DNA from: Candidatus Gastranaerophilales bacterium
GTDB taxonomy: Bacteria; Cyanobacteriota; Vampirovibrionia; Gastranaerophilales; Gastranaerophilaceae
Direction of reading: 5' to 3'
Assembly: GCA_944322865.1 (NCBI GenBank)
Contig: CALUQJ010000007.1
Location: forward strand, 1-43,785
Length of the DNA stretch: 43,785 nt
Part shown: in pieces, positions 42,058 to 43,785 of the stretch
Layout: every line of letters begins with the position of its first letter
Position numbering within the stretch: position 1 is the stretch's first letter
Notes under the pieces: model-generated
What the model was told of the DNA's origin: nothing
Seen by the model: the letters and a program-made list of their open reading frames with translations, nothing else
Database searches by the model: none
Position numbers and translations under genes: made by a program

Positions 42058-42789
42058 TTATTTAATTTTAAAAGTAACATTAGCTACAGCTGTAACTTTT
42101 TTCTCAATAGTTGAGGTATCGCTAATCCCCATATCAGAAACATTAGTTGAATCAACCGGTGTAATTTGGAACACTCCCATTCTGACAGATTGAATATTAC
42201 CCGTTTTATTATGAGTAGCTTGAAGCATAGCGTCAGCCCTTTGTTGTGCATCGGTTGTAGCATCTTGCAGAAGCTTTACTTTTACATCAGAAAGTTTTGA
42301 ATAAAAAAATTGAGGCTCCATTGCATTTATTTCGATACCTTTAGAGATAAAATTCTGAATGTCTATAGAAATATCTTTTATCTTGTTAACATCATTTGAG
42401 GTAACTACAATCGGCTGATTAATAGTATGGCTTGCAATTTCGTTGGTTGTCATTCCATTAGCATTGTATTTGTAAGTATTGTAGCCGTTAGTTGTTTTAA
42501 GTTCTATATCATTGTCAGTAAAGCCTTTGTTTTTCAGATAATCCAAAACTTCCGGAAGTTGTTTTTGCACAAGATTATAAGCCGCAACTCTGTTAGGCTG
42601 TCTTGCTGTTAGATTAAATTCAAATCTTGCGGAATCAGATTGTACAATTTCATAGGCAGAACCTGTGACAGAAATCCCTTCAGTGCGCAAATTAGCTGTT
42701 GCTGATTTAGCTGCCCACACAATACCTAAAGCCAAAATTACTGACATCAAAACTAATTGATACTTTTCTACCTTGTCAAACATAAACAC
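42058..42789 (-). CDS. SIMPL (DUF541) domain protein
   Basis: 243 residues with one N-terminal membrane helix (about 11-29) as uncleaved signal or anchor, then a periplasmic SIMPL domain: ISVTGSAYEIVQSDSARFEF at the start and a TAVANVTFKIK end. SIMPL proteins are periplasmic or membrane-linked, some tied to stress; no defined reaction. AAGGAG precedes the ATG. First gene of a two-gene operon. Confidence 0.85.
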   Translation of the reverse strand: MFMFDKVEKYQLVLMSVILALGIVWAAKSATANLRTEGISVTGSAYEIVQSDSARFEFNLTARQPNRVAAYNLVQKQLPEVLDYLKNKGFTDNDIELKTTNGYNTYKYNANGMTTNEIASHTINQPIVVTSNDVNKIKDISIDIQNFISKGIEINAMEPQFFYSKLSDVKVKLLQDATTDAQQRADAMLQATHNKTGNIQSVRMGVFQITPVDSTNVSDMGISDTSTIEKKVTAVANVTFKIK

Positions 42790-43199
42790 TCCTTATCTAT
42801 ACTTTTATATTTTAACATATTTAATACAAGTTTTCAACCGTAAGTACAAAAATGTTAACAAAAGGGAATAGGGGAATGAGGAAATCAGGCAATGCGTGAG
42901 TTGTCTTATTAACAAGACGTTAAGACGATAAGACGCTAAGACGTTAAGTGCATTAATAAAGTGATTATTGGTGAAATTTGCAAAGACTAATTAATGATAC
43001 GAACTTAACGTCCTATAGTCCTAACGTCTTAGCGTCTTTTGAACAAGGCAATGCTTAAATCTTGCATTGCCTTATTTTTTGTAACGAACTTAACGTCTTA
43101 GCGTCTTAACGTCTTTTGAACAAGGCAACGCTTAAATCTTGCATTGCCCTATTTTTGTAACGAACTTATTCCCTTATTCCCCTATTTCCTTATTCCCTT
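42790..43199. repeat. Field of short tandem and inverted repeats
   Basis: 410 bp without a gene. From left to right: GGGAATAGGGGAATGAGG-type purine repeats (about 42862-42884); ACGNTAAG tandem units (42912-42948); the complementary AACGTCTTAGCGTCTT units twice (about 42999-43039 and 43083-43117); two copies, 77 bp apart, of a GGCAA(T/C)GC...GCATTGCC hairpin with T-run; and TTATTCCC-type units (43167-43200). The 20 bases at 42929-42948 are exactly complementary to 43089-43108. Confidence 0.85.
43045..43080 (+). terminator. Terminator-like hairpin, first of two copies
   Basis: AAGGCAATGC and GCATTGCCTT form a 10-bp stem over a 9-nt loop, followed by ATTTTTT. A second, less perfect copy lies 77 bp downstream (from 43122). 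No plus-strand gene upstream needs it, so it may be repeat structure only. Confidence 0.5.
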
Positions 43200-43228
43200 C
43201 CAATAAGAGGACTGTGTCCTCTTATTGG
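43200..43228. repeat. 13-bp perfect hairpin over the stop of the pilin-like gene
   Basis: CCAATAAGAGGAC (43200-43212), TGT, GTCCTCTTATTGG (43216-43228). The right arm contains the last codon and the stop of the leftward gene. No T-run follows on the minus strand, so it is not a standard terminator. A hairpin right after the variable region is a feature of DGR targets. Confidence 0.85.
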
Positions 43229-43785
43229 TCCAGGCAAACCGCGAGCCTGTAGCTGTTGGTGCGGTTGTCGTTGAACCAGATCGTGTAGGTAGGGAAGAAG
43301 TCGCGGTTGTACGCGGTGTCCTGGCTGTACTCCTGCCCGGACCAAACGAAGAACCTGGAGGTTCCGCCAGGTGATTGGGCTGTGAAGAGCGAAGCTCGAT
43401 CGGCATCCCAATCTGCATAGGTTGTAGTAGTTCCGCCTTTTATTTCATCGGCATCTGGATATATGTATGCCGCTAATTGTTCTAGCTGAGCTTGAGTTGG
43501 CATGTTTTGAACTCCACCGCAGGCTCTTACTGCCCCTGCCCAATAATCATTAACCCAGTGGCACGCTGTTATTCCTAATGTACCTTCTGATACTGCTTGA
43601 TTACATTCTTCTAATGTCATAGGGCTATAGCCGCCGTTTTGTGGTCCTAATATCTGTGTTATACACATTGTATCTTTTAATTCTGGTATCATGCAACCTG
43701 TTACGCCGGCTAATTGTTCTACGTTTATCTTACCGATATCTTTTCCGTTTGTATTTGGGTTCTTATTACCGGATACATCGTATAA
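43222..43785 (-). CDS. Pilin-like protein with GC-rich C-terminal putative DGR variable region, 5' end outside window
   Basis: The frame is open to the right edge, so the N-terminus is missing; 187 codons are visible. The visible start reads LYDVSGNKNPNTNGKDIGKI, the calcium-loop-like segment also found in the prepilin at 24937. Then come several Cys (GCMIPELKDTMC, EECNQ, ACHW, ACGG). The last part, from about AQSPGGTSRF, ends WFNDNRTNSYRLAVCLDQ, resembling C-type-lectin-fold ends of DGR-diversified proteins. In the last 53 codons 45 end in G or C by hand count, whereas upstream DNA is AT-biased. Many codons are AAC, TAC, GAC, TTC or AGC. It is probably surface-displayed; the DGR assignment is inference. 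Confidence 0.7.
   Translation of the reverse strand, partial: LYDVSGNKNPNTNGKDIGKINVEQLAGVTGCMIPELKDTMCITQILGPQNGGYSPMTLEECNQAVSEGTLGITACHWVNDYWAGAVRACGGVQNMPTQAQLEQLAAYIYPDADEIKGGTTTTYADWDADRASLFTAQSPGGTSRFFVWSGQEYSQDTAYNRDFFPTYTIWFNDNRTNSYRLAVCLDQ

Follow-up and report, generated by a model that had tools for sequence, protein, structure and literature searches.

We found that the gene running off the end of the stretch of DNA analysed here is very probably a remote target of a chromosomal diversity-generating retroelement (DGR), encoding a variable tip anchored by a prepilin N-terminus. We regard this as the best explanation of the data as a whole. The stretch, called the window below, is 43,785 bases long and is an entire contig (C7) of a genome of 1,802,733 bases in 103 contigs that is 99.6% complete. 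Named relatives of the protein family belong mostly to Candidatus Gastranaerophilales, which are non-photosynthetic cyanobacteria of the gut.

The window gene and its template

The stop codon of the window gene is at 43222-43224, and the 5' end of the gene is cut off by the contig end at 43785. Along its length, the gene is 57-85% identical to intact or nearly intact paralogues in the same genome. The features of the window are as follows.

43222..43785, minus strand: 3' part of a prepilin-type DGR target gene (open frame, 187 codons plus stop)
43232..43353, minus strand: variable repeat (VR), a 122-base copy of the template repeat (TR, C23:1572-1693) with alterations only at adenines, from comparison with the template
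43232..43245, minus strand: invariant 14 bases CTCGCGGTTTGCCT at the 3' end of the VR, identical in TR and window; candidate initiation-of-mutagenic-homing site
43200..43228, no strand: perfect inverted repeat, 13-bp stem and 3-base loop, starting 3 bases past the VR and overlapping the stop codon
43065..43221, minus strand: duplicated 3' flank, ~80-94% identical to the sequence that follows most of the genome's other targets (blastn, 19 partners)

An earlier note, made from the window alone, had described a jump in composition near codon 130. The jump is real: G+C content was 41.3% upstream of codon 130 and 58.6% downstream. Third positions were G or C in 44 of the final 53 codons (the note had counted 45), compared to 40 of 134 upstream. 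The true boundary, however, is the point from which the sequence resembles the template, namely codon 145 (base 43353). The note had also listed codons in which this end is rich. AAC, TAC, GAC and TTC were indeed among the commonest, as was ACC. The protein does end in RLAVCLDQ, as the note had read it.

The note had proposed that the gene is a DGR target, a proposal that would fall if the genome had neither a reverse transcriptase (RT) nor a template. We found both on contig C23, in a cassette with the order pilin target with VR, bAvd, TR and RT.

C23:1-294: pilin target with VR
C23:1005-1376: bAvd (PF22296, 62 bits, cut-off 40)
C23:1572-1693: TR, ending 52 bases ahead of the RT start codon
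C23:1746-2891: DGR-type RT (RVT_1, 47 bits; IGNLTSQ and YVDD motifs)

The TR reads FYVWSGQEYSQNNAYNRNFNPTNTNWNNNNRNNSNKLAVCL and contains 14 AAC codons and one AAA. The VR in the window differs from it at 15 of 41 adenines and at none of the 81 other bases (for the window gene alone, Fisher p = 1e-8). Together with the RT, bAvd and TR in the same genome, this bears out the proposal.

The RT on C23 is 43-47% identical to phage DGR-type RTs. We rejected a phage origin: identity was below 60% to every phage record found, RTs from the bacterial family reach 76-79%, and ordinary cellular genes come after the cassette. A search of the cassette against Rfam matched no family. Searching the genome for RVT_1 identified two genes, the one on C23 and one on C24. 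The latter (a 1068-aa frame) was considered as a DGR RT and rejected; it is a defence RT of the UG5-nitrilase type. The region at C24:22372-22872 (L002) encodes an RT-nitrilase fusion matching UG5-nitrilase (DRT) defence models. Separately, sub-threshold bAvd-like genes (24 bits) were present away from the cassettes in this genome (C19:26656-26961, L307) and in a sister species, G005 (C7:21751-22059, L308). These are possibly 23S rRNA intervening-sequence proteins.

The repertoire of targets and the protein they encode

Scattered across this genome are ~23 prepilin-type genes or ends of such genes, the window gene among them, and in at least 17 of these the last 40 codons are copies of the C23 template. 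The earlier note was right to see a target but had not foreseen that it was one among ~23 dispersed copies. Compared to the TR, the 17 colinear VRs are changed at 322 of 697 adenines and at 12 of 1377 other bases (p ~1e-160), and all 17 sequences are distinct. The count of 17 covers colinear VRs; about six further copies contain indels, are diverged or are decayed. Two copies (L021 and L024) have extra codons inserted near their ends, three (L013, L014 and L017) have VRs that have diverged further, and of one (L025) a decayed remnant is left. We also searched the genome with the template as a pattern in which any base could stand at its adenines, allowing up to 3 mismatches. There were 18 sites, one of which is the TR itself; the reversed pattern, used as a control on the same genome, gave 0 sites.

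Similarity between the 3' flanks of the targets stops within ~300 bases. Therefore, the targets are separate loci and not variants of one locus. Two elements recur at the ends of the targets. The 14 bases CTCGCGGTTTGCCT contain a single change across the 17 colinear VRs, and their position makes them a candidate for the initiation-of-mutagenic-homing site. A perfect stem of at least 8 bp is present downstream of the VR in 18 of the 23 copies in this genome, and the inverted repeat at 43200-43228 is a candidate target-recognition hairpin or cruciform. Its loop departs from GRNA, which is a consensus from phage DGRs. The intergenic region beside the target gene (42900-43150) also contains short imperfect repeats of the type AAGACGTTAAGACGCTAAG.

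The pattern of change fits the code. In the variable codons, mean entropy was 1.60 bits at positions 1 and 2, which are nearly random, and 0.20 at position 3, which stays C. Conversion of AAC to NNC allows 15 amino acids and no stop; change is thus limited to selected residues of the C-terminal domain. By arithmetic from the 14 AAC codons and the AAA, the space accessible to each target is ~10^17 to 10^18 proteins.

The note had called the product pilin-like. This holds through full-length paralogues and homologues, which have a prepilin N-terminus; it is not visible in the window, which ends before the N-terminus is reached. The prepilin motif and helix are accordingly those of homologues, the window gene being truncated at its N-terminus. 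Full-length homologues have ~350-400 residues and start with FTLAEVLITLAIIGVVAALTIP or a near variant. The prepilin model TIGR02532 matched the first homologue with 18.9 bits (cut-off 16.3) and matched 20 of 25 members. A structural model of one homologue (L106) predicts a single N-terminal helix of 51 residues (residues 14-64).

The C-terminal domain in the window was modelled with confidence (core pLDDT >90), and a lectin-like reading of this model is plausible. Foldseek searches with it found nothing significant in the PDB or viral libraries. The best PDB fold matches were weak (E 0.5-1.9) and included snake-venom C-type lectins and the C-terminal domains of Bd2740 and Lcl. The best match in the viral structure library had E 0.06, and proteins with Fib_succ_major and DUF1566 were among the weak matches. 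A Pfam search of the window fragment (E up to 1) and a sequence-profile search of the PDB gave no match.

Based on these results, we propose that the RT and Avd would reverse transcribe template RNA with errors at adenines, and that the cDNA would replace the VR of any target that has the matching 3' end and the downstream hairpin. Through its prepilin N-terminus, the protein would then be anchored and built into a pseudopilus or a filament resembling a type IV pilus, so that many different tips could be displayed per cell. The tips probably bind to surfaces of the gut, to mucus or glycans from the diet, or to phages and other microbes. The cell would thereby hold, as seems probable, a large self-diversifying set of putative binding proteins.

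It is also conceivable, though we think it rather unlikely, that the DGR is as described and that the product is not an adhesin tip but a minor pseudopilin, acting in secretion or DNA uptake, or an envelope protein outside any filament. The matches to the N-terminus span pilin, pseudopilin and competence-pilin models, with no equivalog model above its cut-off, and all the remaining features would be unaffected. Against this, a large family with hypervariable C-termini would be expected of a surface binder rather than of a structural component of secretion.

Related genomes and other possible sources of the variation

A close RT was present in 25 of 191 genomes of the bacterial family. In a genome from a related genus (G042), the order is target-Avd-TR-RT-target. 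Its template is its own and distinct, fits five sites in that genome including itself, and gives a third-position entropy of 0.07. Within the genus, each of five other genomes has 29-53 homologues of the C-terminal domain.

One of these, G005, appears to have a split system. Its RT is isolated on C9 (C9:47500-53500, L199). A TR-Avd module flanked by housekeeping genes is on C12 (C12:6500-11700, L198), and a target-Avd-TR module with a different template is on C19 (~10.7-14.0 kb, L306). The C12 template fits at least 11 dispersed VRs, which are changed at 225 of 528 adenines and 1 of 792 other bases. The target on C19, compared to its own template, is changed at 20 of 41 adenines and 0 of 82 other bases. 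Because the RT is alone on C9 and the two Avd-TR modules are elsewhere, we infer that this one RT probably serves both templates in trans.

Targets also differ among species in where they are found. Upstream of a SIMPL-like gene in the window (42058-42789) is a target derived from the C23 template. In G005, where the SIMPL-like gene is 96% identical, the same slot is occupied by a pilin from a different subfamily, one close to the C12 template. In the loci compared from G001, G002 and G003, the slot contains no pilin. That is, both the presence and the type of pilin in this slot differ among species (L279-L282). Some VR alleles are identical or nearly so across species and are followed by unrelated 3' flanks (L216/L260, L217/L258 and L009/L082), which suggests that whole gene ends have been transferred or have recombined. 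Because these near-identical alleles cross species with unrelated flanks, recombination between targets probably supplements template-driven change. A few alleles are thus common to species, and part of the variation is therefore not fresh.

In four genomes of the genus (G001-G004), we searched for the RT and Avd and detected neither. The NNC signature was weakened in both of the relatives tested, with third-position entropies of 0.79 (G001) and 0.46 (G003). Two VRs in G003 fit the C23 template described here, with 0 and 1 non-adenine changes. The simplest reading of these sequences is that the repertoires of G001-G004 were left behind, frozen after loss of the machinery. Alternatively, the cassette may be on unbinned contigs, because target genes break assemblies.

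These genomes raise the possibility that, in the window genome too, a DGR built the repertoire and now seldom rewrites it or no longer does so, with most targets inherited as fixed alleles and recombined between loci and species. The repertoires in G001-G004, the alleles shared across species, and the three clearly diverged VRs and the decayed one in this genome are all in keeping with this idea. However, the machinery here is intact in sequence, and the 17 VRs, including that in the window, have gained almost no non-adenine changes, which implies that they were rewritten recently. We therefore consider a stopped system unlikely in this genome.

It is very improbable that the variation arose mainly without an RT, through gene conversion between silent pilin copies and expressed ones. 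Neisseria has such a system: a variable type IV pilin repertoire is generated at pilE by gene conversion from silent pilS copies. The genome described here does have many dispersed homologous copies, and the linkers that precede their VRs are mosaic; together with the shared alleles, this suggests some recombination. Gene conversion alone, however, would produce neither the confinement of changes to adenines nor the fixation of C at third positions, and an RT, an Avd and a template are present. Unlike in Neisseria, the route here would be adenine-directed reverse transcription. Gene conversion is thus contradicted as the main source, although it may contribute in addition. An ordinary paralogous family that had acquired a foreign G+C-rich domain and diverged under positive selection can be dismissed: the jumps in G+C and in third-position G+C at the boundary are real, but the composition is that of the C23 template, and only adenines are affected by the changes.

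Comparison with known systems and implications

DGRs are usually pictured as one cassette that rewrites one or a few genes. Many of them, but not all, include an accessory variability determinant (Avd), and a hairpin or cruciform beyond the VR is also common. The remote-target system that we favour here shares much with the DGR of Bordetella phage BPP-1 (Mtd/Avd/TR/bRT): an RT, an Avd, a template, differences confined to adenines and a VR at the 3' end of the target. In both systems, an inverted repeat adjoins the VR and extends over the stop codon; in BPP-1, a hairpin at this position is needed for efficient homing (PMC3240598). In contrast to BPP-1, which has one target and a hairpin with a 7-10 bp stem and a 4-base GRNA loop, the system here is chromosomal, has ~23 dispersed prepilin-type targets, and has a 13-bp stem with a 3-base loop.

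Photosynthetic cyanobacteria have DGRs with 76 remote targets in 21 genomes, mostly of cytosolic signalling type (Vallota-Eastman et al. 2020, PMC7517822), and targets left over after loss of the RT have already been suggested for them (PMC7517822). Genome-dispersed remote targets with the VR at the 3' end are common to those systems and this one. Here, however, ~22 remote copies are in one genome of 1.8 Mb and all are prepilin-type. Thiohalocapsa PB-PSB1 has nine DGR loci and 15 targets, links to defence-type proteins and evidence of activity in trans (PMC10907252). Several DGR loci and evidence of action in trans are points of likeness; the targets in PB-PSB1 are not pilins. According to the paper that cites the work, DGRs in Bacteroides diversify type V tip pilins (Macadangdang et al., cited in PMC12632263). 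As described there, those are also pilins diversified in a gut bacterium, but type V pili are derived from lipoproteins and are unrelated to the type IV prepilin class found here.

In the open-access literature, we found no paper joining DGRs with Gastranaerophilales or Melainabacteria. Nor did the literature searched contain a system with this per-genome scale, the type IV prepilin class, unlinked template modules or repertoires without a machine. Dispersed targets and action in trans were already known; the scale, the pilin class and the modularity appear to be new here. The many near-identical targets coincide with contig ends in this assembly, and therefore short-read genomes probably give too low a count of such repertoires.

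It is possible, and we suggest it tentatively, that the genus as a whole has an engine for pilin repertoires. It would consist of an RT and exchangeable Avd-TR modules that can become unlinked and that act in trans on tens of dispersed prepilin genes. Because species would gain, swap or lose the machinery, repertoires would arise in bursts and then be inherited in a frozen state, recombined and passed on from locus to locus and from species to species.

In this small gut bacterium, one template corresponds to about two dozen surface-type genes. Its sister species G005 probably uses a single RT for two unlinked templates, and other sisters have the products without a detectable machine. These genomes raise testable questions: by what means a DGR locates so many targets in trans, what sets the upper bound on their number, and what the binding partners of uncultured Gastranaerophilales in the gut are.
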